Origin: Zoogloea dura
GTDB lineage: Bacteria; Pseudomonadota; Gammaproteobacteria; Burkholderiales; Rhodocyclaceae
Assembly (NCBI RefSeq): GCF_012927165.1
Contig: NZ_JABBGA010000023.1
Span: forward strand, 1-64,000
Reading direction: 5' to 3'
Length of the DNA: 64,000 bases
Under the pieces are notes generated by a model, which was not told the origin of the DNA, did not search any database, and was given only the letters and a program-made list of their open reading frames with translations. The translations under genes and the position numbers were made by a program. Positions within the stretch are counted from its first letter, which is position 1. Every line of letters begins with the position of its first letter. Below are positions 4,378 to 61,573 of this stretch, piece after piece.

Positions 4378-4405
4378 TGTGCTTGTCTCCCTGAGCTGAG
4401 CGAGG

Positions 4406-7678: not shown

Positions 7679-7755
7679 GGTCTTGTCTCCTCGTCGGCAG
7701 TGGGCTGCCGCTTGTTTTCTAAGGTGTTGAGTGCGCCGGCGCGACTGTAAGCCCT

Positions 7756-8841: not shown

Positions 8842-8892
8842 GGGCCCTCCTGGGTTCATGCGCCGAATCTAGGCGCCGGGGCCTCCGCACAA

Positions 8893-8911
8893 AACGTCCA
8901 AAAGGACGATG
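8893..8911 (+). promoter_or_regulatory. regulon dyad between MBL-fold and MFS genes
   Basis: The site is AACGTCCAAAAGGACGATG. The conserved GGACGATG arm faces the MFS gene (57 nt before its ATG). The divergent MBL-fold start is 51 nt away on the other side, so one site could serve both. Confidence 0.65.
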
Positions 8912-8968
8912 CCCCCGTTGCCGGAGATCCACAGTATCCCTAGCCTGTCACCAGCCCGGAGTCACTCC

Positions 8969-10312
8969 ATGAAGCAGGAATCCCTCCCCATCGCCAGCGC
9001 CGTCCCGGTCGTCCCGGTCGTAAACTGGCGGACCCATCTGAGCCTGCTGCTGCTGGCCCTGGTGTATGTGTTCTCGTATATCGACCGCAACGTCATCGCC
9101 ATCCTGATCGAGCCGATCAAGCGGGAGTTCGGCGCCTCCGACACGGCCATGGGCCTGCTCACCGGCCTGGCCTTCGGGGTGCTCTACGCGGTGATGGGCA
9201 TCCCCCTCGGGCGGCTCGCCGACCAGGGCTTCAACCGGCGCAACCTGGTGGCCATGGCCTGCGGCCTGTGGAGCCTGGCCACCATGGCCTGCGGCATGGC
9301 CGGCCAGTTCTGGCAGCTGATGATCGCCCGCATGACGGTGGCCATCGGCGAGGCGGGCGGCATGGCCCCGTCCATGTCGATGGTGTCGGATCTGTACCCC
9401 AAGGAACGCCGCTCGATGGTCATCAGCCTGTTCATGATGGGGCCGCACATCGGCATGATCCTGGCCATGGCCCTCGGCGGCTGGATCGCTCAGCAGCATG
9501 GCTGGCGGGCCACCTTCCTGTTCTTCGGGGTGCCCGGCATCGTGCTCGCCGCCTTGCTCTGGCTGCTGGTCCGGGAGCCGCGCCGCGGTGGCTTCGACAG
9601 CGGGCCGGCGGCCATCGCCAGCCCTGCCCTGCCCCTCTTTGCCCAGCTGCGCGAGCTGCTGCGCATCCGCGCCTTTCTGCTGGTGTGCCTGGCCTGCGGG
9701 CTGGGTGGCATTGCCGGCTACGGCTACGGCATCTGGGGGCCGAGCTTCCTGATGCGCAGCCACACCCTGCCCCTGGCCCAGGCCGGCCTGCTGTTCGGCC
9801 TGGCTAGCGGCCTGGGCGCCGCCGGCGGGGCCATCTTCGGCGGCTGGTACTGCGACCGGCTGACCCGCCGCGACCCACGCTGGCAGATCCGCCTGCCCAT
9901 GCTCGGCGCCATCCTGGGCCTGCCCATGGGCTTCGCCTTCCTGCTGTGGCCGGCCGGCAACTGGCAGCTGGGCAGCCTGGCCATCCCCCACGCCATGATC
10001 TTTGCGGTGGGCTTCGGCTTCTTCAACGCTTGGTGGCCGCCCCTGTGCTACGCCGCCACCAGCCACATGATGGCGCCCAACCAGCGGGCCCTCGGGGCAG
10101 CCCTGCTCAACCTCTTCCTGACCCTCTTCGGCGCCGGCCTGGGTCCGCTCCTCTCCGGCGCGCTGAGCGACCTGTTCGTCGGCCGCTTCGGGCCGGGCAG
10201 CCTGCGCTACGCCCTGCTCCTCACCCTGTGCCTGCTGGGGATCTCCGCGCTGTTGCTGGGCCGCGCCATCCAGGACTACGTGCGGCGCCTCGACGCCCTC
10301 AAGGCCGGCTGA
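8969..10312 (+). CDS. MFS transporter, spinster-like
   Basis: This is a 447-residue inner-membrane protein with about 12 hydrophobic segments. The first membrane helix contains YVFSYIDRNVIAILIEPIK, typical of the spinster-like MFS group that includes steroid and aromatic acid permeases. The A motif appears as GRLADQGFNRR near residue 80. An earlier in-frame ATG at 8909 falls inside the regulatory dyad; the start at 8969 has GGAG seven bases upstream and is preferred. Given the dyad and the adjacent oxygenase gene, uptake of a steroid substrate or export of an intermediate is likely; direction cannot be told. Confidence 0.85.
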   Translation: MKQESLPIASAVPVVPVVNWRTHLSLLLLALVYVFSYIDRNVIAILIEPIKREFGASDTAMGLLTGLAFGVLYAVMGIPLGRLADQGFNRRNLVAMACGLWSLATMACGMAGQFWQLMIARMTVAIGEAGGMAPSMSMVSDLYPKERRSMVISLFMMGPHIGMILAMALGGWIAQQHGWRATFLFFGVPGIVLAALLWLLVREPRRGGFDSGPAAIASPALPLFAQLRELLRIRAFLLVCLACGLGGIAGYGYGIWGPSFLMRSHTLPLAQAGLLFGLASGLGAAGGAIFGGWYCDRLTRRDPRWQIRLPMLGAILGLPMGFAFLLWPAGNWQLGSLAIPHAMIFAVGFGFFNAWWPPLCYAATSHMMAPNQRALGAALLNLFLTLFGAGLGPLLSGALSDLFVGRFGPGSLRYALLLTLCLLGISALLLGRAIQDYVRRLDALKAG

Positions 10313-10408: not shown

Positions 10409-11518
10409 ATGGCCACCACCAAGGACTATCGACTCGGCGAATTCACCTTCCCCCGCGGCTGGTTCATGATCGCCGACGCAGAAGAGCTGAACACCCACAA
10501 ACCCCTGGCGGTCCGTTTCCTCGGCAAGGACTTTGCCCTCTACAGGGGCCGCGAAAGCGGCAAGGTGGTTCTGCTGGACGCCTACTGCCCGCACATGAAG
10601 ACCCACCTGGCGGCCCCCAACGACACCTCCTACGTGGTGCTGGACGGCGGTGGCAGCAACGTCGAGGGTGACGGCATCCGCTGCCCCTACCACGCCTGGC
10701 GCTTCGGCCCGGACGGCAAGTGCAACGACATCCCCTACCATGAAGGCAGCATCCCGGCCACCGCCAGCGTGAAGTCCTGGCCGGTGGTGGAGAGCCTGGG
10801 CGCCATCTGGCTGTGGCACGACCCGGAAGGTGGCGAACCCGAATGGGATCACCCCAGCCTGCCCCAGTGGGACGACCCGGCCTGGGTGCGCTGGAAGTTC
10901 GACCACCTGGGCATCCTCGAGCAGCACCCCCAGGAAGTCATCGACAACATCTGCGACTACGGCCACCTCAGCCCGATCCACGGCTCCACCGTGGAAAAGT
11001 ACGAGAACGAGTTCAAGGGCCACAACGCCATCCAGCGCCAGTGCGGCCCGCACCGCACCCTGGTGGGCCCGGACGGGGTCAGCCCGATCCTGCACACCAT
11101 CACCATCTATCACGGCCCCGGCGTGCTCATCTCCCACCTCACCGGCCTGTACGACGCGGTGATGATGATCACCCACACCCCGGTCGAAGACGGCTCGGTG
11201 AAGGTCTGGCACGCCCTGCTGGTCAAGTCGCCCGGCGGCAACGACACGGCCACCCTGCCCGATACCATCGCCGCCCGCCAGTTCCAGGAATCCGCCCGCC
11301 TCGCCTTCGCCCAGGACTTCGAGGTGTGGACCAACAAGGGCCCCTGCCTCAACGGCCTCTTCATCCCCAGCGACGGCCCCTTCATGAAGGCCCGCATCTG
11401 GTACAAGCAGTTCTACAACCCGCGCGCCATGAAGCAGGAGTTCCTGGAGCAGTGCGAGGGGTATTACGTGCCGAAGGGCGCGGTGCCTTATACGGACAAG
11501 GAGCCCGTGGCCGCCTGA
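10409..11518 (+). CDS. kshA: KshA-type Rieske oxygenase, 3-ketosteroid 9-alpha-hydroxylase oxygenase subunit
   Basis: This is a 369-residue Rieske non-haem iron oxygenase. Rieske ligands are C60, H62, C92 and H95. The loop between the pairs is about 13 residues longer than in most family members. The mononuclear iron motif N180-x2-D183-x2-H186-x4-H191 is complete. This layout matches proteobacterial KshA, which adds the 9-alpha hydroxyl that triggers B-ring opening of 1,4-diene-3-ketosteroids. A related steroid oxygenase is the alternative. The start has a strong AAAAGGAGCC ribosome binding site. No reductase partner (KshB) is nearby, so electrons must come from a protein encoded elsewhere. 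A terminator follows. Confidence 0.78.
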   Translation: MATTKDYRLGEFTFPRGWFMIADAEELNTHKPLAVRFLGKDFALYRGRESGKVVLLDAYCPHMKTHLAAPNDTSYVVLDGGGSNVEGDGIRCPYHAWRFGPDGKCNDIPYHEGSIPATASVKSWPVVESLGAIWLWHDPEGGEPEWDHPSLPQWDDPAWVRWKFDHLGILEQHPQEVIDNICDYGHLSPIHGSTVEKYENEFKGHNAIQRQCGPHRTLVGPDGVSPILHTITIYHGPGVLISHLTGLYDAVMMITHTPVEDGSVKVWHALLVKSPGGNDTATLPDTIAARQFQESARLAFAQDFEVWTNKGPCLNGLFIPSDGPFMKARIWYKQFYNPRAMKQEFLEQCEGYYVPKGAVPYTDKEPVAA

Positions 11519-11545
11519 GGGATGGCCTGATCCTTGATGCATGAA

Positions 11546-11580
11546 GCAGGAAGCCGCAGGAATGCGGCTTCCTGCGTTTG
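11546..11580 (+). terminator. terminator-like hairpin after kshA
   Basis: A perfect 13-bp stem GCAGGAAGCCGCA/TGCGGCTTCCTGC (11546-11558 and 11563-11575, GGAA loop) is followed by GTTTG. The U-run is short, but position and stem strength fit termination of kshA. Confidence 0.65.
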
Positions 11581-11614
11581 GAGGGTGCTCCTTCTTGCCC
11601 CGCGCGCGCCGGCG

Positions 11615-12457
11615 TCAGTGACGCTCCCGCAAGCGGAATAGTGTGCGGGAGCCGCCCTTCGGCATGCCCTCGTCCATGACGTCGAACAGTTCCGAGCCGA
11701 TGAGCAGCTGCTTGAGACTCTTGAATCCATAGCGCTCAACCAAGTGTGCCAACTCATCGGGATGCTCCTTCGCAGCCACCTGCCCCGCAGTGGACAAATA
11801 CGTCCAGCCATCGGTGCGCTTGTCCCGCCCATGGACCTCGCAGAACAGGCTGATCAGGGGAGACCGTTGCAGCCAGGCCAACTCAAACTGCCGCTCAAAC
11901 TCCGGGCTTGCGACGAGCTCGGCCATGGACTTCCTGCCTTGCTCTATCCGCAGCGAAATCTCCTTCAGATGGTCGAACATCGGCGAGACTTTATCGCGCT
12001 GGACATCCAGGTAGGCCAGCGCGTCATTCAGCGCAGTCTCATCTCCCGGTTTCCAACGAGGCAGGAAGTGATGGACAAGCTCATTGCGTTGCTCGGTCAT
12101 CAGCTTGAGATCCGCCCGCATTCTCTGAACGAACGCATCCTCGACTTCCATCGTGAACTTGAAACGGAAGGCACACTGCGCAGTCTCCGGCACCCCGAAC
12201 TCCGGTATCTCCAACCCCGCTTCCACCAGTACATCACTCAGGTAGTTTCGGACAAGCGTCCCAAGCGTCTGCTGCGCGGGCCTTCCCCCGACAACAGAAG
12301 TCTCGACTAAGGCACTCGCGCCATCAGATCGGACATACGTGCTATTGCTGTTCTCCAAGATGAACTTCAGGAACAGCTCGATCTGCTGAAAAATAACGAG
12401 ATTCCGCCCTACACGGCGCAGGACCTCGTCACTGGTGGGGGTGCGATCGTTGGACAT
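11615..12457 (-). CDS. OST-HTH/LOTUS-domain protein of unknown function
   Basis: This is a 280-residue soluble protein. The last 65 or so residues (DGWTYLSTAGQ ... HPDELAHLVERYGFKSLKQL ... LFRLRE) look like an OST-HTH/LOTUS winged helix, a module linked to RNA binding. The N-terminal 200 residues are helical with a conserved-looking RNELVHHFLPRW segment that recalls HEPN-like or C-terminal domains of defence and abortive-infection proteins; that link is only suggestive. No strong ribosome binding site is seen. It stands alone between the kshA terminator and a region of transposase fragments, so it is probably an accessory gene outside the steroid regulon. Confidence 0.6.
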   Translation of the reverse strand: MSNDRTPTSDEVLRRVGRNLVIFQQIELFLKFILENSNSTYVRSDGASALVETSVVGGRPAQQTLGTLVRNYLSDVLVEAGLEIPEFGVPETAQCAFRFKFTMEVEDAFVQRMRADLKLMTEQRNELVHHFLPRWKPGDETALNDALAYLDVQRDKVSPMFDHLKEISLRIEQGRKSMAELVASPEFERQFELAWLQRSPLISLFCEVHGRDKRTDGWTYLSTAGQVAAKEHPDELAHLVERYGFKSLKQLLIGSELFDVMDEGMPKGGSRTLFRLRERH

Positions 12458-12680
12458 GGAAGATCGTGGGGCTGCAAATGAAAAAAGAAGGCGTAGCTCT
12501 AAGACAATTGGAGAAGTTGGTGTATTGAATGGCGGCTTGTCGGCCGGAACAGTCGTTCATGCTCTGCGCACCGAGCGGCTTCTTTGGGACAGACAACCGC
12601 CGCTCAGTGTAGTACAAGACTGATGGGCAGCTTTCAACGCGAGCGACAGGCTTCACAAAGACGATTAGTGGCGCGACCTG

Positions 12681-12773
12681 CAGAGCTTTGCCTTGGTCGA
12701 GCGTGCTCACCGTATCGGCGACAGGACGAGCATTGAACGCCGCTATTACGTCAGCAGCCTGGCCCTGCGCATG
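12681..12773 (+). pseudogene. remnant of an ISAs1-family transposase
   Basis: Frame +3 from 12681 encodes QSFALVERAHRIGDRTSIER followed by RYYVSSLALR. This matches the region of ISAs1 (H-repeat-associated) transposases around the R-Y-Y-x-S-S-L motif, just before the SHWGIEN box, which is missing. Only about 31 codons survive and no start is present, so it is a fragment. Confidence 0.5.
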
Positions 12774-12802
12774 AACGGGGGGTCACAGTCGTCACCTCCT
12801 AG

Positions 12803-12981
12803 CATCCCACCCGTAAGCATCCAGAGACCCTCGACAAGCACCTTTACCGAAGCCGCAATCTGATCGAACGCTGGTTTTGTCGCGTTAGCCAATCCGGTGT
12901 ATCGCAACCCGCTACAACAAGCTGGCATCGCACTTCGCATCGTTCATCCGCTTATGTGCGGCTGTCATTTTGGGGGCGTGA
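12803..12981 (+). pseudogene. frameshifted C-terminus of an IS5-family (IS427-group) transposase
   Basis: One frame (12803 to about 12895) encodes DKHLYRSRNLIERWFCRV, the helix carrying the catalytic glutamate region of IS427-group transposases. The sequence continues in another frame from 12895 as IATRYNKLASHFASFIRLCA and ends at TGA 12979-12981. The two halves together give the expected ending (ERWF..RV/K..RR-IATRY-KLA..F..F..L..A), so a single frameshift inactivated it. It differs from the transposase end at the window start. Confidence 0.7.
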
Positions 12982-26640: not shown

Positions 26641-27441
26641 TCAGGCGGCCGGGCGGATGCCCGGCGGGTTGCCCTTGAGCTGGGCGGCACGCAGGTCGTG
26701 GGGGTCGAGGCGGCGGATGATCTCCAACTGGGCAGCGCCGGGATGCGGCGTCTCGCCCAGGCCCTCAGCCTTGAGCAGCGGGAAGCCGGTCTTCTCCTGC
26801 ACCTCCTCGAAGCTCACCCCGGGGTGCAGGCTGCGCACCCGGGCGCTGTTGCCGGGGCCTTGCCAGTCCATCACGCACAGGTCGGTGACGGCGACGCGGA
26901 TGTCCATCAGGTCGCGGCGCACGCCGTCGTCCCAGCGCTCGGGCTTGAAGCCGACGCCGGACACCATGTCCACCTCGCCGGCCACGAAGACGCGCGGGCT
27001 GTGGTTGGGCACGAAGAAGGAGTTGATGTGGTTGATGCTGTTGCCGGGCAGGCCGCGCACCCCCAGCATGGCCGCCTTGGGCTGGCGGTAGTCGCCCACG
27101 CAGGACAGGTTGGTCTGGGCCCAGCGGTCGATCTGGGTGGGGCCGACCATGGCGTGGCGGCGGCCGCCCCACACGCACTCGAAGACCCGCTCGAAGGACA
27201 TGTAGCCGCTGTACTTCGGCACGTAGTCACCGCGGGGGCCGACGGGGATGGGATCTTCGACCAGGAAGGCCTCGCTGTCGGTCATCAGCAGCTCGGGGCT
27301 GTGGGTCAACTTGGCCAGGCCGGCGCCCAGGCGGGGAATGATGCCGAGGCCGGAGGCCAGCACCTCGCCGTTGTCGCGCCAGGCTTCCGAGGCGGCGACG
27401 ATCATCAGCTCGGCCAGGGTGAAGGGCGTGTTTTCGTTCAT
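26641..27441 (-). CDS. ipdB: IpdB, beta subunit of the C-ring-opening CoA transferase-like hydrolase
   Basis: This is a 266-residue class I CoA-transferase beta-type fold. It has LIVAASEAWRDNGEVLASGLG at the N-terminus region, then MSFERVFECVWGGRRHAMVG and LHPGVSFEEVQEKTGF. IpdA and IpdB form a heterotetramer that hydrolytically opens the last steroid ring (COCHEA-CoA). It is encoded just after ipdA with an AGGAGACCAGAC ribosome binding site. The pairing with ipdA, length and neighbours make the assignment strong. Confidence 0.9.
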   Translation of the reverse strand: MNENTPFTLAELMIVAASEAWRDNGEVLASGLGIIPRLGAGLAKLTHSPELLMTDSEAFLVEDPIPVGPRGDYVPKYSGYMSFERVFECVWGGRRHAMVGPTQIDRWAQTNLSCVGDYRQPKAAMLGVRGLPGNSINHINSFFVPNHSPRVFVAGEVDMVSGVGFKPERWDDGVRRDLMDIRVAVTDLCVMDWQGPGNSARVRSLHPGVSFEEVQEKTGFPLLKAEGLGETPHPGAAQLEIIRRLDPHDLRAAQLKGNPPGIRPAA

Positions 27442-27452
27442 GTCTGGTCTCC

Positions 27453-28328
27453 TCAGAACACCGGCAGGGGCAGCCCGGCCATGCGTTCGATACCGCCGTT
27501 GCGGTCCTGGTAGGCGGCTTCGCCGGGCTGCACGAATTCCTCCATGTAGGCCTGCCAGCCGCCGGGTTCGGTGGCGCTGGCCACGTAGCGCTTGAAGTGG
27601 CTCATGTCCCAGCCGTAGTCGGAGGGACAGGAGGTGGGGTGAGCGCCGCAGGGGGCCTCCACCACGCCGCTCACCAGGTAACGCTCGAAGGTGTTGAAGC
27701 GGGCCTGGGCGGCGTCCAGCTGCAGGCGCTCCTCCACCCGCTCCGCGGACACGTAGCAGGCCTCGGCGGCGCGGGCGAAGAGGTGGTCGAAATAGGGATC
27801 GGGGCCAGTCACCAGGGTGTTGCCGAGGCGGTCGGCCACGTTGACGTGGAGGATCGCCGCATCCAGCTTGAGGGCCGGCATGGCGAGCAGGGTCTCGCCA
27901 TCTTCATAGGGAGACCGGATGGTCCGGATCTCCGGGTTGAGGCGGGTCACGTCGGTGGCCAGGCCGCAGCGGGTGGGCAGGAAGGGCAGGCGCATGCCAG
28001 CGGCGCGCAGGCCCCACTGGAACATGCCCTCGTCCAGCTCCATCAGCTCCAGGCTGCCGCTCTCGCGGATCTTGCGATACCAGGGTTCGAGGGGGATCGC
28101 GTCGAGGGTGGCGAAGCCGAAGACCAGCTTCTTCACCTTGCCGGCGGCGCACAGCATGCCGACCTCGGGGCCACCGTAGGCCACCACGGTGAGGTCCTTG
28201 AGGCTGGAGCGCAGGATCTCGCGGACGATGGCCATCGGCTTGCGACGGGGGCCCCAGCCCCCGAAGCCGACGGTCATGCCGTCGCGCAGGCGGGCGACGG
28301 CATCCGCCGCCGTCATCTGTTTGTTCAT
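27453..28328 (-). CDS. ipdA: IpdA, alpha subunit of the C-ring-opening CoA transferase-like hydrolase
   Basis: This is a 291-residue class I CoA-transferase alpha-type protein. It begins MTAADAVARLRDGMTVGFGGWGPRRKPMA, the CoA-binding glycine motif of IpdA and related glutaconate CoA-transferases. It includes VVAYGGPEVGMLCAAGKVKK and LRLPF-type segments. With IpdB it opens the C ring in the cytoplasm. It is second in the operon, after the meta-cleavage dioxygenase gene, and 11 bases before ipdB. Confidence 0.9.
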   Translation of the reverse strand: MNKQMTAADAVARLRDGMTVGFGGWGPRRKPMAIVREILRSSLKDLTVVAYGGPEVGMLCAAGKVKKLVFGFATLDAIPLEPWYRKIRESGSLELMELDEGMFQWGLRAAGMRLPFLPTRCGLATDVTRLNPEIRTIRSPYEDGETLLAMPALKLDAAILHVNVADRLGNTLVTGPDPYFDHLFARAAEACYVSAERVEERLQLDAAQARFNTFERYLVSGVVEAPCGAHPTSCPSDYGWDMSHFKRYVASATEPGGWQAYMEEFVQPGEAAYQDRNGGIERMAGLPLPVF

Positions 28329-36316: not shown

Positions 36317-38449
36317 ATGGGCACTTTCGACAATCTGCTGCGCCCTGGCCACATCGGCCGCATGGAACTGCGCAACCGCATCGTGATGGCCCCGATGGGC
36401 TCCAACTTTGCCGAGGCCGACGGGACCTGCGGGGAGCGCATCCAGGCCTATTACGAGGCCCGTGCCGCCGGTGGCGCCGGGCTGCTGATCATGGGCGTGT
36501 GCGCCATCGCCTATCCGGCCGGCACCGCCGAGCCTTTCCAGGTGGGGGTCTCCGAGGAGCGCTTCGTCCCCGGCCTGGCGGCCCTGGCCGAGCGGGTGCA
36601 TCGCCACGGCGCCAAGCTGGCCATGCAGCTGCAGCACGCCGGCAAGACGGCCGTGCGCGACATGGCCGAGGGGCGCGAGCTGTGGGTGCCATCGATGCCA
36701 CCGCCGCTCAAGACCGACATGATGCAGGCCCTGACCCGCGAAGAACTGGGCGCCTTCATCAGCTCCAGCAAGCGCCGCGAGAGCGGCGGCGTGGCCATCC
36801 GGGTGATGGACAAGGCCGACATCGCGCAGATGGCCGAGTGGTTCGCCGCTGCCGCCGAGCGGGCCCGCCGGGCCGGCTTCGACGGGGTGGAGCTCCACGC
36901 CGCCCACAGCTACATCATCGCCGGCTTCCTGTCCCCCTATTACAACAAGCGCGACGACGAGTACGGCGGCTCCCTGGAAAACCGGGCGCGCATGCTGCTG
37001 GAAGTGATCGCCGCCGTGCGCGCGCGGGTGGGCGCCGACTTTCCGGTGTGGCTGCGCCTGGATGCGGAGGAGATCCGCACCCCCGGCGGCATCACCCTGG
37101 ACGACGCCAAGGCCGTGGCGCGGATGGCCGAGGCGGCCGGCGTGGACGCGGTGAGCGTGTCGGCCTACGCCAACACCAGCACCGGGGTGGCCTTCACCGA
37201 GGCGCCCCTGGTCCAGCAGAAGGCGGGCTTCCTGCCCTGGGCAGCCGAGATCAAGGCCGGGCTGCAGATCCCGGTGATCGCCGTCGGGCGCCTGGAGCCG
37301 GAGGTGGCCGATACCGCCATCGGTGCCGGCCAGTGCGACTTCGTGGCCATGGCGCGCAAACTGCTGGCCGACCCGGAGCTGCCCCGCAAGCTCGTCGAGA
37401 ACCGCCCGGAGGACATCCGCCCCTGCATCTACTGCTACGCCTGCGTCAGCCAGATCTTCATCAACCAGCGGGTCAAGTGCGCGGTGAATCCCCTCACCGG
37501 CCATGAGTTCGAGACCCGCCTGAACCCCGTGGCCACGCCTGCCCACATCGTGGTGGTGGGCGGTGGCCCGGCCGGCCTGGAGGCGGCCCGGGTCGCTGCG
37601 CTGCGCGGCCACCGGGTGACCCTGGTCGAGCGCAGCGGACGGCTCGGCGGCACCCTCTTCTTCGCCGGCCTGGCCTATGCCGAGAACGGCGCCCTGCTCG
37701 ACCACCTGGTGCGCCAGGTGAAGAAGCTGCCGATCCAGCTGATGCTGGGCACCGCCGCCACCCCTGCCCTGCTCCGCGAGCTCAAGGCCGATGCGGTGAT
37801 CGTCGCCACCGGCGCCGAACGCAGCGCCCCGGCCATCCCCGGCGCAGAGCAGGACCACGTGTGGTCCGGCGACGAACTGCGCCGCCTGATGACCGACGAC
37901 CGGGCCGAGGAGATCGCCAAGCGCAAGCTGTCCTTCGGTCAGCGCGCGCTGATGAAGGCCGGCAGCCTGGCCGGCGTCACCGACAGCAGCGACGCCATCC
38001 AGAACCTGTCGCGCCTGTGGATGCCCCTGGGCAAGCGCGTCGCCATCATCGGCGGCGGGCTGGTCGGCCTCGAGCTGGCGGAGTTCCTGGTGGAGCGCGG
38101 CCGCCAGGTGAGCGTGCTGGAAGAAGGCCCCAGCCTCGGCCGGGAGCTGTCGATCGTGCGGCGCTGGCGGGTGCTGGACAGCCTGCGCCAGCACAAGGCC
38201 GAGCTGCTGACCCAGGCCACGGTGACCGACATCGGCAGCAAGGCGGTGAGCTACACCACCCAGGACGGCGAAACCCGCAGCCTGCCCGCCGATTCCGTGG
38301 TGCTGGCCATCGGCGCCCGCCCGGACGACCGGCTGGCCAAGGAGCTGGAAAGCGTCAGGGTGCCGGTGATCACCGCCGGCGACGGCGCCGCCATCGGCTA
38401 CATCGAAGGCGCCCTGGCCTCCGGCTTCGCGGCGGGCAACCGGGTGTGA
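36317..38449 (+). CDS. FadH/BaiCD-like NADH:flavin oxidoreductase with iron-sulfur and FAD domains
   Basis: This is a 710-residue multidomain reductase. The N-terminal 380 residues form an old-yellow-enzyme barrel (LRNRIVMAPMGSNFA; the LHAAHSYIIAGFLSPYYNKR block). C-P-C-I-Y-C-Y-A-C and VKCAVNP hold the 4Fe-4S cysteines. The C-terminal half has two nucleotide-binding motifs, VVVGGGPAGLEAARVAAL and VAIIGGGLVGLELAEF. This is the architecture of 2,4-dienoyl-CoA reductase and of bile-acid BaiCD/BaiH reductases. Here it may reduce a double bond of a steroid or of the dienoate released by TesD. It is co-transcribed with tesD. Confidence 0.86.
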   Translation: MGTFDNLLRPGHIGRMELRNRIVMAPMGSNFAEADGTCGERIQAYYEARAAGGAGLLIMGVCAIAYPAGTAEPFQVGVSEERFVPGLAALAERVHRHGAKLAMQLQHAGKTAVRDMAEGRELWVPSMPPPLKTDMMQALTREELGAFISSSKRRESGGVAIRVMDKADIAQMAEWFAAAAERARRAGFDGVELHAAHSYIIAGFLSPYYNKRDDEYGGSLENRARMLLEVIAAVRARVGADFPVWLRLDAEEIRTPGGITLDDAKAVARMAEAAGVDAVSVSAYANTSTGVAFTEAPLVQQKAGFLPWAAEIKAGLQIPVIAVGRLEPEVADTAIGAGQCDFVAMARKLLADPELPRKLVENRPEDIRPCIYCYACVSQIFINQRVKCAVNPLTGHEFETRLNPVATPAHIVVVGGGPAGLEAARVAALRGHRVTLVERSGRLGGTLFFAGLAYAENGALLDHLVRQVKKLPIQLMLGTAATPALLRELKADAVIVATGAERSAPAIPGAEQDHVWSGDELRRLMTDDRAEEIAKRKLSFGQRALMKAGSLAGVTDSSDAIQNLSRLWMPLGKRVAIIGGGLVGLELAEFLVERGRQVSVLEEGPSLGRELSIVRRWRVLDSLRQHKAELLTQATVTDIGSKAVSYTTQDGETRSLPADSVVLAIGARPDDRLAKELESVRVPVITAGDGAAIGYIEGALASGFAAGNRV

Positions 38450-51546: not shown

Positions 51547-52608
51547 TCAGGCCGCTTCCGGATAGTCGGTGTAGCCCGCCGCGCCGGCGGTGTACAGGCT
51601 GCGCCGGTCGAAGCCGGCCAGGGGCAGGCCCTCCCGCAGGCGGCGCACCAGGTCCGGGTTGGCGATGAAGTGGCGGGCGAAGGACACCGCGTCGCCCTGC
51701 CCGGCCTGGATGGCCGCCTCGGCGCCGGGGCCGTCGAAACCGTCATTGAGGATCAGGCGGCCGGCAAAGTGCTCGCGCCCCAGGCTGAAGGCGTCGATCC
51801 CGGCCACCGGGGCGCGCATCACGTGCAGATAGGCCAGGCCCAGGCCGGCGGCCTGGCGGGCCAGTTCCAGATGGGTCTCCGCCGGCTTGTCGTCCGTGAT
51901 GTCGTTGTAGCTGTTGCCGGGGTTCATGCGCAGGCCGACCCGGCCCGGCCCGATGGCATCGGCCATGGCCGCCAGGCACTCCAGCGGAAAGCGCACCCGC
52001 CCGGCCAGACTGCCACCGTACTCATCGCTGCGCCGGTTGCTGCCGGAGGCCATGAACTGCATGGGCAGGTAGCCGCTGGTGCAGTGCAGCTCCACCCCGT
52101 CGAAGCCCGCCGCCATGGCATTGCGGGCGGCCTGGGCGAATTCCTCCACCACGCCGCGCACCTCCTGGGTGCCCAGTGCGCGGGGCATGTCGCAAGCCTG
52201 CATGCCGGCACTGTCGGTGAAGATGTCCACCCGGGCCTGGATGGCCGACGGTGCGACGGTCTCGACGCCCTCGGGCTTGACGTGACGGCTGCCGATGCGA
52301 CCGGCGTGCATCAGCTGCAGCACGATGCGCCCGCCACGGGCATGTACGGCCTCGGTCACCCTGCGCCAGCCGGCGATGTGGGCCGGGGTGACGATGCCGG
52401 GCTGGCGGCAGTAGGCCTGGCCGGCGGCGCTGGGCCAGGCGCCCTCGGCGACGATCAGGCCGGCCGACGCGCGGGCGGCGTAATGCTCGGCCATCAGGGG
52501 GCCGGGCGTACCGTCGGGCTCCGCCCGGTTGCGGGTCATCGGGGCCATCACGATGCGGTTGGCGAGGGCGATGTCCCCCAGCTGGAGGGGATCGAAAAGA
52601 CGGGCCAT
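51547..52608 (-). CDS. old-yellow-enzyme family NADH:flavin oxidoreductase
   Basis: This is a 353-residue single-domain OYE with FMN-binding and catalytic motifs: LANRIVMAPMTRNRA, VLQLMHAGRIGSR and FDGVELHCTSGYLPMQFMASGSNRRSDEYGG. In the last, the usual H-x-x-N pair appears as H-C-T-S. Members reduce activated C=C bonds, including steroid enones. It is last in the SDR-SnoaL-EthD-SDR operon, 13 bases after the SDR. The start at 52608 fits GGGAGG about six bases upstream. Confidence 0.86.
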   Translation of the reverse strand: MARLFDPLQLGDIALANRIVMAPMTRNRAEPDGTPGPLMAEHYAARASAGLIVAEGAWPSAAGQAYCRQPGIVTPAHIAGWRRVTEAVHARGGRIVLQLMHAGRIGSRHVKPEGVETVAPSAIQARVDIFTDSAGMQACDMPRALGTQEVRGVVEEFAQAARNAMAAGFDGVELHCTSGYLPMQFMASGSNRRSDEYGGSLAGRVRFPLECLAAMADAIGPGRVGLRMNPGNSYNDITDDKPAETHLELARQAAGLGLAYLHVMRAPVAGIDAFSLGREHFAGRLILNDGFDGPGAEAAIQAGQGDAVSFARHFIANPDLVRRLREGLPLAGFDRRSLYTAGAAGYTDYPEAA

Positions 52609-52621
52609 GGGCATCCTCCCC

Positions 52622-53389
52622 TTACAGGGCGGTGACCAGCACGGCGGCACGCCCACCGTCCACCGGCAGGGTGGCGCCGGTGATGTAGGAAGCCTCGTCG
52701 CTGGCCAGGAAGAGGATGGCGTTGGCCAGCTCCCGCGGCTTGCCGACGCGCCCCATGGGGATGAGCTTCTCGGTGCTGGCCTTCGAGGCCGGGTCGGCCA
52801 GCATGCCGGCAGTGGCCGGGGTCTCGACGACGGCGGGGATCACCACGTTCACCCTGATGCCCTGGGCCGCGCCTTCCGCCGCCGCCGCGCGGGAGAAGTT
52901 GATCACCGCCGCCTTTGCCGCCGAGTAGCCGGCCATCCAGGGGGTGCCGAGGGTGCCGCAGATCGACGACAGGTTGATGATGGAACCGCCGTGGGTCTTC
53001 ATCAGCTGCATGGCGCTGCGGGTGCCCCAGAAGGTGCCGTCCACGGAGGTGCCGAAGTTGGCCTGCCAGTCGGCGCTGCTCATGGCCTCGATGGGCCCCC
53101 AGGTGTAGGCCATGGCGTTGTTCACCAGGATGTCGAGGCGGCCGTGGCGGCGGGCGCAGTCTGCCAGCGCGGCGGTGAAGGCGGCTTCATCGCTCACATC
53201 GGCGACCACCGCTTCGGCCTGGCCGCCGGCGGCGCGGATCCGGCCGACCACCTCGTCGAGGGGCGCCTGGCGGCGGCCGCAGATCACCACCCGGGCGCCC
53301 TCCTCGGCAAAGCGTTCGGCGGTGGCGGCGCCGATGCCGGAGCCTCCACCGGTGATGAAGGCGATCTTGTCTTGCAGGCGTGCAGTCAT
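52622..53389 (-). CDS. SDR, hydroxysteroid-dehydrogenase-like
   Basis: This is a 255-residue classical SDR with IAFITGGGSGIGAATAERFAEEG, NNAMAYTWG, INLSSICGTLG and YSAAKAAVINFSRA. The C-terminal ITGATLPVDGG is typical. In this operon a hydroxysteroid dehydrogenase is likely (3-, 7- or 12-position), but specificity cannot be read from sequence. NNAM instead of the common NNAG is a small peculiarity. Confidence 0.85.
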   Translation of the reverse strand: MTARLQDKIAFITGGGSGIGAATAERFAEEGARVVICGRRQAPLDEVVGRIRAAGGQAEAVVADVSDEAAFTAALADCARRHGRLDILVNNAMAYTWGPIEAMSSADWQANFGTSVDGTFWGTRSAMQLMKTHGGSIINLSSICGTLGTPWMAGYSAAKAAVINFSRAAAAEGAAQGIRVNVVIPAVVETPATAGMLADPASKASTEKLIPMGRVGKPRELANAILFLASDEASYITGATLPVDGGRAAVLVTAL

Positions 53390-53436
53390 GGCGTGTGTCC
53401 CTTGGGAAATGTGTCGGATGAGGGGTGTCGCGGCGT

Positions 53437-54132
53437 TCAGGGGCGACGATGGGTGACCCGGGTGAGCAGGGTCACCGAGCGGGCGGGGTCGATGCAGGCG
53501 GCCACCACCCGGGGCAGGCGCGCAGGCAGCTCGACCCCGTCGATGGCACGTATCGCGGTGTCGGGGTCGGGGAACCAGGCTTCGAGGATCAGCGCGTAGT
53601 CGTAGCCCGGCGGCGGCGTGCCATCCACCCGGTTGATGACGAGCCGGCGGGTGGCGCCGAGGGCCGGGTCGGCCAGCCAGCGCTCGGGGCCCGCAGCGGC
53701 CAGGGCGCGGTCCAGGTCGGCCTGGTTGAGCCCCGGGGCAAGGCCCAGGAAGGCGGTCACCACGCAGTCGGTGGGCTCGCCATCGCGCAGCACGCTGGCC
53801 TCGGCGATCAGGGTGAAGTCGCGGACCCAGGTCGAAAAAACCCGGGGCTCGTCGGGCCGCATGATGCGCAGGGTCTCCTCGTCGTTCCAGATGTCGTCGG
53901 CGGCCTGGCGGTCGCGCAGCTCCAGCAGGTTCACCCCGTCGTAGCCCGCGGAGGCGCCGGCCAGCCGTGCACTGTTGTCGAGGTCGCGGGCGCACTGGCG
54001 CACGCTCCGGATCTTGTCGCGGACATTGCTGCACCCTGCCCCCAGGGCCGAGTGCTCGCGCCAGGCCTGGGGAAACTCCTCGGGCCTCAGGGCCGGGTTG
54101 CGCCGGGCCAGGTAGATCATCTTCCAGCCCAT
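53437..54132 (-). CDS. EthD-domain dimeric alpha/beta-barrel protein
   Basis: This is a 231-residue protein. The N-terminal MIYLARRNPALRPEEFPQAW and HSALGAG segment is typical of EthD domains, with a second related half (residues 120-225, with LGLAPGLNQADLDRALA). EthD proteins are small ferredoxin-fold barrels found with diverse catabolic enzymes; their chemistry is mostly unknown. It overlaps the SnoaL-like gene stop by one base (TGATG), indicating coupling, and precedes an SDR gene. Confidence 0.75.
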   Translation of the reverse strand: MGWKMIYLARRNPALRPEEFPQAWREHSALGAGCSNVRDKIRSVRQCARDLDNSARLAGASAGYDGVNLLELRDRQAADDIWNDEETLRIMRPDEPRVFSTWVRDFTLIAEASVLRDGEPTDCVVTAFLGLAPGLNQADLDRALAAAGPERWLADPALGATRRLVINRVDGTPPPGYDYALILEAWFPDPDTAIRAIDGVELPARLPRVVAACIDPARSVTLLTRVTHRRP

Positions 54133-54761
54133 CAGCGCACCCGGATCTTCGGGTCTGGCGCCCCCTGGCGGAGGGTGGCCAGGAAGGCCTCCGCGGGGGC
54201 CGGTGGAGCCACCTCCGGCAGCGCGTCCTTGTCCGGGCGCTGGGCCCAGAAGGCCTGCCAGGACGGGAACAGCTCATGGAAGGTGCCGGCATAGGGCTCA
54301 CGGCCCGGCCAGCGCATCTTGCGCTCGCCGATGGGCGGCTTGTTCAGGTCGGTGGCGTACCAGTAGCACGGCAGGCGGCGGCGGAAATACCACTGGCCGT
54401 CGATGCGCGCGTAGTCGTCCCAGTAGAGCATCTGCATGATCACCCACTCGGGGCCGGTCTCATGCTCGTTCTTGGAGTAGACGACGCCCACCGCTTGGTC
54501 GGGGTCGACGAACTCGATGATGTGCTGGCCCACATGGTGGGAGGTGCCGGTGAACTGCTCCCGCAGGGTCTCGTCCACCCAGGCCTTGAGGGCCGCCCGC
54601 CCGGTGCCCCGGCGGCCGACCCGGATATCGGGGGCGAAGAGGTTCACGTGGGCGTCCAGGTCGCGCATGTCGAGGGACAGGGAATACTTGCCCGCCAGCT
54701 GGCGGATCGCCTCGATGGACTCCAGGCGGTCCAGTCGGGCGGCGAGGCTTGCGTCGCTCAT
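54132..54761 (-). CDS. SnoaL-like (NTF2-fold) protein, candidate steroid dehydratase or isomerase
   Basis: This is a 209-residue SnoaL_4-type protein. The segment IEAIRQLAGKYSLSLDMRDLD carries Y26 and D31, at the same spacing as the catalytic Tyr and Asp in the bile-acid 7-alpha-dehydratase BaiE; H75, H76 and H80 (SHHVGQH) lie where BaiE has its histidine. The protein is longer than BaiE by about 40 residues at the C-terminus (KMRWPGREPYAG...). Other SnoaL proteins are isomerases or cyclases, so dehydratase activity is inference, supported by flanking SDR and flavin reductase genes. Confidence 0.75.
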   Translation of the reverse strand: MSDASLAARLDRLESIEAIRQLAGKYSLSLDMRDLDAHVNLFAPDIRVGRRGTGRAALKAWVDETLREQFTGTSHHVGQHIIEFVDPDQAVGVVYSKNEHETGPEWVIMQMLYWDDYARIDGQWYFRRRLPCYWYATDLNKPPIGERKMRWPGREPYAGTFHELFPSWQAFWAQRPDKDALPEVAPPAPAEAFLATLRQGAPDPKIRVR

Positions 54762-54772
54762 GGCCGGGCTGC

Positions 54773-55507
54773 TCACAGGAAGCTCATGCCGCCATTCACG
54801 GCCAGGTTCTGGCCGGTGATGAAGCCGGCCTCCTCGCTGGCCAGAAACACCGCCGCCGCCGCGATCTCCTCCGGCTCGCCCATCCGGCCCAGGGGGATGG
54901 CGCGGATCATGGCCTGGGTCCATTCGTCCGGGATGCCGGCCATCATCGGGGTGTTGGTGGGGCCGGGCACGATGGTGTTGACGCGGATCCCGGTGGGCGC
55001 CAGCTCCCGCGCGGCGCTGCGGGTGAGGCCCATCACGGCGGCCTTGGATGCACAGTAGTGGGCCGGCCCCTCGCCGGAGAAGGCGGCGGTGCTGGAGACA
55101 TTGACGATGGCCCCGCGGGCGCCGCACTTCTGCATCAGCCGCGCGCCTTCACGGCAGCACAGGAAGGTGCCGGTCAGATTGACGCCGATGACCCGCGCCC
55201 AGGCCTCGTCCGGGGTGTCCACGAAGGCATCCATCGAGCCGATGCCGGCGCTGTTGATCACCACGTCCACCCGCCCGAAGCGGGCCTCGACGGACTGGAA
55301 GGCTTCGACCACCGAGGCGCTGTCGGCCACGTTGCAGCTCAGCGCCAGGCCGCGCGGGCCCAGCCCGGCCACCGCCTGGGCGGCCGCCTCGCCGTTGATG
55401 TCGGCCGCCACCACGCTGGCCCCCTCGGCGGCGAAGCGCCGCACCATGGCCAGCCCCATGCCCTGGGCTGCGCCCGTAACGAATACCACCTTGTCGGAAA
55501 ACTTCAT
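54773..55507 (-). CDS. SDR, hydroxysteroid-dehydrogenase-like, first gene of its operon
   Basis: This is a 244-residue SDR with VVFVTGAAQGMGLAMVRRFAAEG, INSAGIGSM, NVSSTAAF and YCASKAAVMGLTRSA. The end ITGQNLAVNGG is typical. It starts the operon, with ATGGAGGCCGGC giving the ribosome binding site for the ATG at 55507 (one 12 bases earlier lacks it). The dyad at 55596-55614 lies about 88 nt upstream. It probably oxidises a nuclear hydroxyl of a steroid. Specificity unknown. Confidence 0.85.
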   Translation of the reverse strand: MKFSDKVVFVTGAAQGMGLAMVRRFAAEGASVVAADINGEAAAQAVAGLGPRGLALSCNVADSASVVEAFQSVEARFGRVDVVINSAGIGSMDAFVDTPDEAWARVIGVNLTGTFLCCREGARLMQKCGARGAIVNVSSTAAFSGEGPAHYCASKAAVMGLTRSAARELAPTGIRVNTIVPGPTNTPMMAGIPDEWTQAMIRAIPLGRMGEPEEIAAAAVFLASEEAGFITGQNLAVNGGMSFL

Positions 55508-55595
55508 GCCGGCCTCCATGATCGTGTTGAGAGATTGCGACGGGGACAGCAGGCCCCCGGTGTGTGCCCATGATTGAGCCTGGACAGCTTCGCGG

Positions 55596-55614
55596 CATCG
55601 TCCAGGCTGACTAG
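55596..55614 (-). promoter_or_regulatory. regulon dyad upstream of the SDR-SnoaL operon
   Basis: Read on the minus strand the site is CTAGTCAGCCTGGACGATG, with one mismatch in the first arm, about 88 nt before the first start codon. Confidence 0.72.
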
Positions 55615-58883: not shown

Positions 58884-60065
58884 TCAGCCCAGGGGCACCA
58901 CGCTGCGCAACACCAGGCGCAGCAGCTCGGTCTGGCGGGTGACGCCGGTCTTGGCAAAGATGCTGCGCAACTGGCTGCGGGCCGTGTGGTGGCTGACCCC
59001 CTGGCGGACCGCGGCCTCGTCCAGGGTCATGCCCTCGACCAGCAGCAGGGCCAGTCCGCTTTCGGCCGAGGTCAGGCCGAACAGGCTGCGCAGCAGGGCC
59101 GGCGATGCACCGACCGAGCGCTCCACGTCGCTGATGTGCAGGACCGCCTCGGGGCAGGGACCATACTCCGCGATGCCCGCAGGTGGCACCGGCCGGATCA
59201 GCACGCCCAGGCGGGTGCGTCCTGACGGGCGGGTCAGGGTCATGCCCTCCACCAGCCCCGGCCCTTTGCCGCGCTCAGCGCCGACCCGGGCGATCATCTC
59301 GTGCAGCAGCACCTTCTCGGCATGCAGGCTGGGACGCAAGGTCCGGCCCACCAGGCGCAGGCCGTCGTCCGCCGCCAGGATCTCGTCCGCGACGCGGTTA
59401 CTGTTCAACACCTTGCCGCGGCGATCCACCCACAGGGTTGCCACCTCCAGGCGCTCCAGGGCGCCCGCGTACAGGCGGCGCTCCCGGTCCGAGCCATCCA
59501 GCACGGCGCGGGCCCGCAATGCGCGCTTGAGATGGGGCAGGAGCAAGGCACACAGCGCCCGCTCCGCCTCGCCGAATGGCCCGGCATCCGCACTGCGGCA
59601 GACCCGGAAGCGGCACACCGCCTCACTCCCCACGTCCAGGTCGGCCCCCGCCAGGTAACGGATTCCCAGCGGTGCCATGCAGCTCCGGTACACCACGCTG
59701 TCCAGCCACTCAGCCTCGGAGATCAGCTCGTCCACCGCCAACATGCGGTTACGCGGCAGGTTGACGAAGGGGTCCAGGCCATGGAGCACGTCGGCATAGG
59801 CAGTCAGCAGGTCCTGCCGGGCCGGGCCGGCGAAAAGGATGGGCAGCCCCGGGCCGGACAGATCGGGCAGCAGCACCAGGGAGACATAATTGGCCCTCAG
59901 CTGCCCCTGAAGCAGATGCAACAGGGCATCCCAGGCCTGCAGGTCGAAGGCGCCGTCGTGGACCAGCCCGACCATCTGCTCGTAGGTCTGGAAACCCACC
60001 CCGGCCCGCGCAAACAGGGCCTGGGTGTCCATCGGGCCGGACTCAGGCGCACGAGGCATCATCAT
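58884..60065 (-). CDS. LuxR-type transcription regulator, candidate regulator of the steroid genes
   Basis: This is a 393-residue regulator. The last 65 residues (FGLTSAESGLALLLVEGMT then VSHHTARSQLRSIFAKTGV) form a LuxR helix-turn-helix. The N-terminal 320 residues contain a PAS/GAF-like sensor region and no receiver aspartate. Size and layout are like TeiR, the testosterone-inducible regulator of Comamonas. Placement among steroid genes, with a dyad 51 nt upstream of its own start, makes it the best candidate to bind the dyads. The start is uncertain: ATG at 60065 or 60032; neither has a strong ribosome binding site. Confidence 0.82.
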   Translation of the reverse strand: MMMPRAPESGPMDTQALFARAGVGFQTYEQMVGLVHDGAFDLQAWDALLHLLQGQLRANYVSLVLLPDLSGPGLPILFAGPARQDLLTAYADVLHGLDPFVNLPRNRMLAVDELISEAEWLDSVVYRSCMAPLGIRYLAGADLDVGSEAVCRFRVCRSADAGPFGEAERALCALLLPHLKRALRARAVLDGSDRERRLYAGALERLEVATLWVDRRGKVLNSNRVADEILAADDGLRLVGRTLRPSLHAEKVLLHEMIARVGAERGKGPGLVEGMTLTRPSGRTRLGVLIRPVPPAGIAEYGPCPEAVLHISDVERSVGASPALLRSLFGLTSAESGLALLLVEGMTLDEAAVRQGVSHHTARSQLRSIFAKTGVTRQTELLRLVLRSVVPLG

Positions 60066-60116: not shown

Positions 60117-60135
60117 GTCGTCCGGACGGACGATG
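60117..60135. promoter_or_regulatory. near-perfect palindromic regulon dyad between LuxR and YjjJ-like genes
   Basis: The site is GTCGTCCGGACGGACGATG, with a fully symmetrical centre. It lies 51 nt before the regulator gene and 94 nt before the plus-strand gene at 60230, so it could mediate autoregulation. Confidence 0.7.
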
Positions 60136-60229: not shown

Positions 60230-61573
60230 ATGCCCCGACACGCAGATCCGATCCGGCTTCACCTTGCACGAGGCCCTCTTGGTGCGCGCCAACTCGTTGA
60301 AGCATTGGGCATCAGTCAGCCAACGCTGTCCCGTGCGATGCTTGAGCTGGGAGACGAGGTGGTCCGTATCGGCGCGGCGCGATCCATTCAGTACGCGCTG
60401 CGTGATGACGTCCGGGGGCTGGCAGAAATGGAGATCTACCGGGTGGATCCGGAGGCCAGGGTCCATCACCTCGGCACCCTCATCCCGGTCCGGCCGGACG
60501 GCTTCGTCATGCGCGAAGCCGGCGGGGCCACCCTGTACAGCCCCGGCCTGCCCTGGTGGCTGCTCGACATGCGCCCCCAGGGCTACCTCGGTCGGGCCTA
60601 CGCGGCCCGGCACGGGCGGGACCTGGGCCTTCCCGAACGCCTCACCGAGTGGTCGGACACGCATGCGCTGAAGGCCCTGCTCGCGCATGGTCACGATGTG
60701 GTCGGCAATCTGCTGCTGGGTGACCGGGCACGCGCCCATTTCCTGCGCATGGACGCCGCGCCGCTGCCGATCGGCATCGAACAGAAGACCGGGATCTACG
60801 CCCGGCTGGCGCAGGAGGCCGCCAGCGGTGAGACGCCGGGGTCGTCGGCAGGGGGCGAGCAACCCAAGTTCGCCGCCTGGGCCATGACCTCTTCGGGGCC
60901 CCGGCATGTGCTCGTCAAGTTCAGCGAGCCGCTGGCGGGCCCGGTCAGCGAGCGCTGGAGAGACCTGCTCCTGGCCGAACATCTCGCCCTGGAAACCCTT
61001 GCACAGGCCGGCATTGCCGCCGCCCGCAGCGAACTGCTCAGCCTCGAAGGGCAGACCTTCCTCGAGCTGGAGCGCTTTGATCGCGTCGGCGGGCTGGGCC
61101 GCCGGGGGCTGATGTCACTGGCCGCCCTGGACGCGGAATTCGTCGGGCTCGGCGGCCCGTGGCCGGAGATCGCGACCGCCCTTGCCGCTGCCGGACACAT
61201 CCCCCGCGAGGCGGCAGGCCGGGCCCATCTGCTGTGGGCCTTCGGCCACCTCATCGGCAACACCGACATGCACGGCGGCAACCTGTCCTTCATTCCCGAC
61301 CCGGGGCGCCCCTACGCCATCGCCCCCGCCTACGACATGACGCCGATGGCTTTCGCGCCCAGGAGCGGCGGCGGACTGCCCGACACCATCCCGGCGCCGA
61401 ACATCCGGGCAGGCATCGCCCCTGATATCTGGCGCTCCGCGCTGGCCCTGGCCCGCAGCTTCCTGGCCCGCGTCATGGAAGCCCCCGGCTTCAGCCCGCG
61501 CTTCGCGCCATGCAGGCTGGCCCTGGCGCAGCACCTGGAGGACGCGGGGGCGCAGATTGCCAGGCTGGCATAG
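60230..61573 (+). CDS. YjjJ-type HipA-like kinase with N-terminal HTH
   Basis: This is a 447-residue protein. The first 60 residues form a winged-helix-like DNA-binding domain (LVEALGISQPTLSRAMLEL). The C-terminal part is a HipA-like kinase with GGEQPKFAAW (phosphate loop), HLIGNTDMHGGNLSF (catalytic Asp) and APAYDMTPMAF (metal Asp). This layout is that of YjjJ, a HipA relative that joins toxin and DNA-binding parts and has been proposed to lack a separate antitoxin. No antitoxin gene is adjacent. It stands divergent from the LuxR gene, next to a regulon dyad. No clear ribosome binding site is seen. Confidence 0.85.
   Translation: MPRHADPIRLHLARGPLGARQLVEALGISQPTLSRAMLELGDEVVRIGAARSIQYALRDDVRGLAEMEIYRVDPEARVHHLGTLIPVRPDGFVMREAGGATLYSPGLPWWLLDMRPQGYLGRAYAARHGRDLGLPERLTEWSDTHALKALLAHGHDVVGNLLLGDRARAHFLRMDAAPLPIGIEQKTGIYARLAQEAASGETPGSSAGGEQPKFAAWAMTSSGPRHVLVKFSEPLAGPVSERWRDLLLAEHLALETLAQAGIAAARSELLSLEGQTFLELERFDRVGGLGRRGLMSLAALDAEFVGLGGPWPEIATALAAAGHIPREAAGRAHLLWAFGHLIGNTDMHGGNLSFIPDPGRPYAIAPAYDMTPMAFAPRSGGGLPDTIPAPNIRAGIAPDIWRSALALARSFLARVMEAPGFSPRFAPCRLALAQHLEDAGAQIARLA

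Follow-up and report, generated by a model that had tools for sequence, protein, structure and literature searches.

The operon and its setting

What does a compact run of five genes, encoding two short-chain dehydrogenases/reductases (SDRs), a SnoaL-fold protein, an EthD-domain protein and an old yellow enzyme (OYE), do in Zoogloea dura? The genes lie in a 64,000-nucleotide (nt) stretch of this bacterium (assembly GCF_012927165.1, contig NZ_JABBGA010000023.1, positions 1 to 64,000), the whole of which we call the window, and a sequence-only reading had likened them to a bile-acid dehydroxylation (bai) operon. Our comparisons indicate that the operon very probably represents, in Zoogloea, the 12-hydroxyl cassette of Proteobacteria, a judgement that covers its four standard genes and excludes any reaction of the EthD protein. 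Most of the finding is thus the Zoogloea form of a cassette already known from bile-acid degraders; what is new is the EthD gene, whose presence tracks that of kshA in f26, the related family that was sampled in depth. All five genes are real and intact at the position first given for them, and run on the minus strand from 55519 down to 51547:

54773 to 55519, minus strand: SDR1, adh_short_C2 family, ortholog of SteA (12alpha-hydroxysteroid dehydrogenase)
54132 to 54761, minus strand: SnoaL/NTF2 protein, SnoaL_4 family, ortholog of SteC/Hsh1 (12beta-hydroxysteroid dehydratase)
53437 to 54132, minus strand: EthD-domain protein, EthD Pfam family, KshA-linked steroid gene, modelled as two ferredoxin-like repeats
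52622 to 53389, minus strand: SDR2, adh_short_C2 family, ortholog of SteB (12-keto to 12beta-hydroxy reductase)
51547 to 52608, minus strand: OYE, single-domain old yellow enzyme, Oxidored_FMN family, ortholog of SteD/Sor1 (ene reductase)

The Pfam matches behind these names are adh_short_C2 for the SDR pair (1.7e-70 and 9.8e-64), SnoaL_4 for the SnoaL protein (2e-20), Oxidored_FMN for the OYE (1.6e-67) and EthD for the EthD protein (PF07110; 3.5e-10, 41.3 bits, above the cut-off of 22). From the gene coordinates the junctions measure +11 nt (SDR1/SnoaL), −1 nt (SnoaL/EthD), +47 nt (EthD/SDR2) and +13 nt (SDR2/OYE). The genes had been described as coupled by overlaps, which is true of a single junction of the four, SnoaL/EthD; its 1-nt overlap (TGATG) also occurs in six other Zoogloea-like loci.

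The proposed steroid-degrader setting is borne out by a kshA gene in the window:

10409 to 11518, plus strand: KshA, 3-ketosteroid 9alpha-hydroxylase oxygenase (KshA_C, 5e-58)

The window also holds HsaC-like and HsaD-like genes, both under the curated NCBIfam cut-offs, and HsaA-like and KstD-like genes, also under cut-off, lie elsewhere in the genome. With KshA, HsaC-like and HsaD-like genes in one window, the operon belongs to a 9,10-seco steroid degradation cluster. The SDR, OYE and EthD families are generic, and the operon could for that reason be imagined as a catabolic unit for a terpenoid or aromatic compound, located in the steroid cluster by chance. This is scarcely credible: the dyad in front of it is common to other operons of the cluster, related cassettes occur in the known bile-salt degrader Azoarcus Aa7, and a close relative of TesB is found in five of the six Zoogloea genomes that have the SnoaL gene.

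Relationship to the 12-hydroxyl cassette

The review PMC8399759, on bile-acid degradation, names SteA, SteB, the dehydratase Hsh1 (Comamonas testosteroni ORF7) and the oxidoreductase Sor1 (ORF6), gives Nov2c15, 16, 12 and 13 as their Sphingobium Chol11 homologs, and describes C. testosteroni, Chol11 and Azoarcus Aa7 as having ste-type sub-clusters whose synteny is similar. There SteA and SteB invert the 12-hydroxyl before ring opening, and Hsh1 and Sor1 remove it once the A-ring is gone. According to a 2026 paper (PMC13101464), SteC is a SnoaL/NTF2 dehydratase of BaiE-like structure that takes the 12beta-hydroxyl off 9,17-DOHNA derivatives, and SteD is the alkene reductase acting on the resulting double bond.

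The four standard genes of the window have close relatives in such clusters. We compared them with 80 named loci, the best of 491 SnoaL relatives and not a census, 13 of which are limited by a contig end. To these the SnoaL protein is 78–98% identical, the nearest being metagenome-assembled genomes (MAGs) of Zoogloea (98% and 96%); it is 75% identical to a plasmid protein of Vibrio alfacsensis and 67% to a pNL2 protein of Novosphingobium aromaticivorans. SDR1 is 65% identical to an SDR on V. alfacsensis pVa1. For SDR2 the values are 70% (Vibrio), 50% (N. aromaticivorans), 76% (Azoarcus Aa7) and 78% (Comamonas sp. NoAH 6), and for the OYE 64%, 53.5%, 60% and 66% in the same order. Relatives of all four occur together on Vibrio pVa1 (64–75%), N. 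aromaticivorans pNL2 (45–67%) and Cupriavidus necator pBB1 (49–69%). The pVa1 locus (L007), from a fish-associated organism, combines the four ste-type genes with a Rieske oxygenase, an FAD-dependent oxidoreductase and a FadD3-family ligase, and a steroid gene set can therefore be plasmid-borne.

Gene order sets the Zoogloea copies apart. The order SDR1-SDR2-SnoaL-OYE (A-B-C-D) occurs in 44 of the 80 loci, among them Comamonas sp. NoAH 6 and Azoarcus Aa7; the remainder are A-B-C (13), A-C (13) and other or partial arrangements (10, including one B-D-A-C). Because order varies in this way, we take A-B-C-D as usual for the cassette but not exclusive to it. It is absent here. Six of the ten other or partial loci are Zoogloea-like loci with EthD, and A-C-EthD-B-D was met, within the 80, in Zoogloea-like genomes only. 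Of the 23 genomes of the genus, 6 have the SnoaL gene itself (our own and 5 of the other 22), and these are also the only 6 that have it among all 60 relatives searched. One Zoogloea-like MAG locus (L044) has SteA-SteC-EthD without SteB and SteD downstream, though its contig continues.

Judged from these comparisons, the window set is a Zoogloea copy of the known cassette in rearranged order. With steABCD of C. testosteroni TA441, hsh1/sor1 of Pseudomonas stutzeri Chol1, Nov2c12-16 of Chol11 and the Azoarcus Aa7 cluster it has in common the four enzyme types, ortholog-level identity in related genomes, a steroid neighbourhood and a SnoaL dehydratase followed by an ene reductase. It differs from them in its A-C-EthD-B-D order, the extra EthD gene and the Zoogloea dyad.

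Orthology, order, dyad, co-occurrence and fold class are what we observed, and from these we infer every reaction in the following scheme; the SteA to SteD activities are those published for orthologs and are transferred to Zoogloea by sequence. On a bile-acid-derived steroid, SDR1 (SteA) would oxidise the 12alpha-hydroxyl to the 12-ketone, which SDR2 (SteB) would reduce to the 12beta-hydroxyl, letting KshA act. KshA and the HsaA, TesB/HsaC and HsaD enzymes would then open rings A and B. After A-ring cleavage, at the HIP stage, the SnoaL protein (SteC/Hsh1) would eliminate the 12beta-hydroxyl as water through a BaiE-type Tyr/Asp/His site, and the OYE (SteD/Sor1) would reduce the new double bond. 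The EthD protein, to go by its gene neighbourhood, may act at some point after the KshA step but before the HIP stage.

Several observations weigh against assigning the operon to this cassette. Orthology was drawn through relatives and published synteny and not from the C. testosteroni TA441 or P. stutzeri Chol1 proteins directly, and SDR1 is 44–51% identical to the SDR in the SteA position in several genera. The nearby set is SteA-SteC alone in 13 of the 80 loci and SteA-SteB-SteC alone in another 13, a few of them cut by a contig end, and the four ste genes are therefore not always together. Zoogloea genome G012 has SnoaL and EthD genes with no KshA match at 1e-100 and a TesB match of just 34%; as it is rated 100% complete, assembly gaps may not be the whole reason for the missing KshA. 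Genome G004 has KshA, yet no SnoaL match was found in it. The Z. dura genome also has seven SnoaL_4 matches, five of them above cut-off (2 of 14 control genomes match as well), so that another SnoaL protein encoded elsewhere could carry out 7-dehydration.

Comparison with the bai operon

How much of the likeness to the bai operon survives? The spacing of Tyr26 and Asp31 of the SnoaL protein is indeed that of BaiE, the two aligning with the Tyr and Asp of its KYFRCLD stretch, and in a profile alignment His76 aligns with a BaiE His. In BaiE these Tyr, Asp and His residues are catalytic. All three are invariant in 26 sequences (alignment A4, the window and 25 of the 80 loci; alignment A3 comprises the window and six loci). 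The profile matches were to a scytalone-dehydratase-like protein (3ef8, E 6e-9), BaiE (6.5e-6) and a LinA-type protein (2e-5), and the resemblance to BaiE, as seen in these alignments, is real but remote. A structure prediction of the SnoaL protein was poor (pLDDT 54.7, pTM 0.45) and was not used.

The reductase fits the bai operon less well. At 353 amino acids the operon OYE is single-domain, and its 122 bits fall well short of the BaiCD cut-off, 825; the operon has no long Fe-S flavoenzyme of the BaiCD/BaiH type. A 710-amino-acid OYE with a nucleotide-binding half, encoded elsewhere in the window (36317-38449), resembles BaiCD better than the operon OYE does (455 bits against the same cut-off).

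In comparison with the bai operon of Clostridium scindens (BaiE, BaiCD, BaiH), the logic of oxidising, dehydrating and reducing is common, and Tyr/Asp/His of the SnoaL protein are in register with BaiE. Zoogloea differs in lacking close BaiE identity, in its single-domain OYE, in the 12- and not the 7-hydroxyl that orthology indicates, and in the position of the operon within a degradation cluster. The suggestion of bai-like chemistry on a hydroxysteroid thus stands as to its steps. Identity with the bai operon was rejected on the orthology of the genes to the ste set (the relatives are the SteA/SteB/Hsh1/Sor1 cassette) and on OYE length, and the likeness to the gut bai operon is, by sequence, an analogy. 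The idea that a 7- or 12-hydroxyl is removed before ring cleavage fares similarly: position 12 is what orthology predicts, position 7 is not the best reading, and Hsh1 and Sor1 act after the A-ring.

A bai-like 7-dehydroxylation, with the SnoaL protein as a 7alpha-dehydratase of BaiE/Hsh2 type working before ring cleavage and the OYE reducing the dienone, would agree with the profile match to BaiE and its residues in register. Hsh2-dependent dehydration is moreover known in Sphingobium Chol11 and Azoarcus Aa7, according to PMC8399759, which however lists Hsh2 (Nov2c400) apart from the Hsh1 homolog (Nov2c12). As the SnoaL protein is 78–98% identical to proteins of 80 loci, most with ste-type neighbours, and the OYE is single-domain and falls far under the BaiCD cut-off, we consider such a function improbable. 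Azoarcus Aa7 has a second SnoaL-like gene, which we considered as a possible Hsh2 and which, as judged by eye, has a signal-peptide-like start.

Distribution of the EthD gene

The EthD gene stands within a ste operon in Zoogloea-like genomes only. Among the 60 relatives it occurs in exactly the six SnoaL-bearing genomes, each time directly after SnoaL, and it diverges faster than SnoaL (62–96% against 87–98% identity). When 398 genomes of the phylum were searched with an EthD profile, two matched, our own and one of the same order (G141). In the stretch of G141 that was read, EthD adjoins kshA and there is no ste cassette.

Outside Zoogloea the gene keeps company with kshA. In a sample of 399 genomes of family f26, perhaps the Burkholderiaceae, EthD is present in 13, KshA (E 1e-100 or better) in 13 and both in 11 (Fisher p 7e-18, uncorrected for relatedness). 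The two genomes with EthD alone have the two weakest EthD hits; the two with KshA alone are in 850 and 620 contigs, one rated 76% complete and the other 99%. We also searched 40 named SteC-bearing genomes, part of those behind the 80 loci. EthD is present in 13 of these, one copy being a fragment with a stop codon, and absent from 27; the carriers are Thauera, Aromatoleum, Polaromonas, Simplicispira, Comamonas, a Rhodanobacter MAG and others, and among the 40 it was not found in Pseudomonas, Marinobacterium, Crenobacter or Steroidobacteraceae genomes or in Azoarcus Aa7.

The 13 loci from f26 and 12 from SteC-bearing genomes, leaving out the Aromatoleum toluolicum fragment, make 25 EthD loci outside Zoogloea. 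In 17 of them kshA converges on EthD at a distance of 84-826 nt (the widest gap, in L195, contains two small open reading frames), in one it is 7.3 kb off, and in seven it does not occur in the part that was read. Each of the five Thauera/Aromatoleum loci has EthD downstream of an SDR-MaoC-thiolase set and on its strand, at 24-3,426 nt from the thiolase; in four of them acyl-CoA-dehydrogenase-like genes intervene. The family is mainly betaproteobacterial and, away from the ste operon, mostly beside kshA or downstream of this set. In the EthD tree, the support values of which were not read, Zoogloea adjoins Thauera and Aromatoleum, and the gene therefore probably moved within clusters rather than from afar.

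The link to KshA is not strict. Across the 23 Zoogloea genomes KshA occurs in five and EthD in six, with four shared: G004 has KshA but no EthD, and in G008 and G012 EthD is present while KshA gave no match. Although these assemblies are in many contigs, G012 is rated 100% and G004 98% complete, and missing contigs may not explain every case. In G462 (L169) the EthD and KshA genes are about 0.5 Mb apart.

The EthD protein and its possible role

What might the EthD protein do? Its model (pLDDT 69.5, pTM 0.72; residues 10-34 and 91-106 poor) consists of two beta-alpha-beta-beta-alpha-beta repeats. The closest structural matches are the anthrone oxidase-like 5f9p (Z 14.4; 3.3 Å, 198 residues) and a marine metagenome protein (Z 14.1), followed by the monooxygenase PenE (9kdp, Z 13.8), sulfur oxygenase reductases (13) and chalcone isomerase (11). 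With 5f9p and PenE the modelled protein has in common the same double ferredoxin-like barrel (192-198 residues, Z 13.8-14.4) at 13-17% identity. Since sulfur oxygenase reductases score nearly as high, this predicted fold class, a common one, gives no function.

The sequence-only reading held that the EthD protein has no assigned role in any such pathway. For this EthD family that agrees with the literature searched, but as a general statement it is too strong, given Hsh3 of Sphingobium Chol11. According to PMC12175502, Hsh3 is an EthD-domain 7beta-hydroxysteroid dehydratase with a near-symmetrical barrel, deletion of which leads to accumulation of a 7beta-hydroxy HIP compound. We found no other EthD-domain steroid enzyme in print, in a search of open-licence literature whose silence is weak evidence. 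Against the N. aromaticivorans Hsh3 homolog (WP_011906908.1, pNL2), one of those that PMC12175502 names, blastp gave just E 3.4 over 17 amino acids, and hhalign probabilities were 0.9-8% for whole proteins and 40% at best for half proteins. With no ortholog-level link to this homolog by either method, we rejected the window protein as an Hsh3 ortholog, though the two may be remotely akin. Both are annotated as EthD and occur in a steroid context, in N. aromaticivorans with a KshA-like gene nearby, and the barrel predicted for the window protein has, like that of Hsh3, two similar halves; they differ in taxa and in the lack of an ortholog-level sequence relation.

Two KshA-like genes are found in the vicinity of the N. 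aromaticivorans Hsh3 homolog, one at about 3 kb (49% identical to the window KshA) and a second at about 12.5 kb (52%). In that pNL2 locus (L018, 30010-34928) the closer of the two is a KshA-like Rieske gene, and the second KshA-like gene adjoins a TesB-like gene. Proximity of an EthD-domain protein to a kshA homolog may thus be a pattern common to two lineages, which favours a dehydratase role. On this ground we raised, from unlikely to a tentative possibility, the idea that the window protein is a second hydroxysteroid dehydratase working like Hsh3, at the 7beta or another position, so that the operon would strip hydroxyls of two stereochemistries. The activity and deletion phenotype of Hsh3, the modelled pair of ferredoxin-like repeats resembling its barrel and the KshA-like neighbours speak for it; the lack of a meaningful blastp match and the low profile probabilities speak against it.

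Conservation bears on whether the protein is an enzyme at all. In 30 sequences, a count that leaves out the weakest hits (L174, L175 and L019), 40 of 231 positions are invariant, including R11, H27, D65, D84, E95, R97, N167, E184 and R230. The second half is less conserved than the first, and the absence of EthD from 27 of the 40 SteC-bearing genomes means that the pathway works without it. Both points suit a non-catalytic protein that binds or stabilises KshA or the SnoaL enzyme, an explanation that we nevertheless hold to be unlikely in view of the invariant positions, polar ones included, and of its co-occurrence with KshA in 11 of the 13 EthD-bearing f26 genomes. A role as stand-in for the hydroxylase HsaA was rejected, as an HsaA-like gene (366 bits, cut-off 450) is present on contig 11.

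The EthD protein looks like a lineage-limited enzyme of steroid ring degradation, most likely an acid-base enzyme of steroid nucleus degradation that works on a hydroxylated or ring-opened intermediate. Water loss, as by Hsh3, is the single likeliest reaction, although our confidence in any specific reaction is low. On a further reading, which we hold to be unlikely, the gene was captured by the 12-hydroxyl operon in Zoogloea, perhaps because 12-oxygenated substrates fragment poorly unaided. If the protein is an enzyme, it would represent either an overlooked step of bacterial steroid breakdown or an enzyme for a step believed to be enzyme-free.

The regulon dyad and neighbouring genes

Is the operon under the control of a regulon, as had been supposed? 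A perfect copy of the dyad does stand in front of it, followed by an inverted repeat and an upstream gene pair:

55596 to 55614, plus strand: regulon dyad CATCGTCC-N5-GACTAG, perfect match, 76 nt ahead of the SDR1 start codon
55640 to 55668, no strand assigned: inverted repeat (9-nt arms) shortly after the DUF1329 stop codon
55692 to 58730, minus strand: DUF1329 and DUF1302 pair (Pfam), upstream of the operon

Where 0.02 matches would be expected, the pattern CATCGTCCNNNNNGACTAR has seven in the window at no more than one mismatch, and five of these are perfect; the comparison is no independent test, since the pattern was derived from these very sites. Genome-wide there are 16 matches at no more than one mismatch, 7 of them perfect, against 3 for a reversed-pattern control, and a mismatch-free dyad precedes the operon in all six of the other Zoogloea-like loci.

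The inverted repeat is probably the terminator of the DUF1329 unit. In Azoarcus Aa7, homologs of the DUF pair (75% and 67%) are separated from the ste cassette by a few kb, and in the window a second pair of DUF1302/DUF1329 type, related to the first by blastp, is found at 2737-5791. The open reading frame (ORF) at 58884-60065 has no Pfam match, and 'LuxR-like' is a label without family support; likewise, no NCBIfam match at 1e-30 was obtained for 26641-28328, where the CoA-transferase/IpdAB label has no family support.

Dyads also precede other genes. A perfect TCGTCC-N4-GGACGATG dyad at 60118-60135 lies upstream of a HipA_C-domain gene (60230-61573), an odd member for a steroid regulon. On contig 11 of the same genome (L124), an HsaA-like gene and a reductase stand behind a one-mismatch dyad (6605-8917), and a 38% homolog of window ORF 58884 and an SDR have a perfect dyad between them (10731-12848); these contig 11 loci are possible distant members of the same regulon. 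Near kshA in the window are genes for a metallo-beta-lactamase (MBL)-fold protein (7756-8859) and a major facilitator superfamily (MFS) transporter (8909-10312). The former has homologs in other steroid-type clusters, those of f26, of Thauera and of the Vibrio plasmid, and homologs of the latter lie near kshA in f26.

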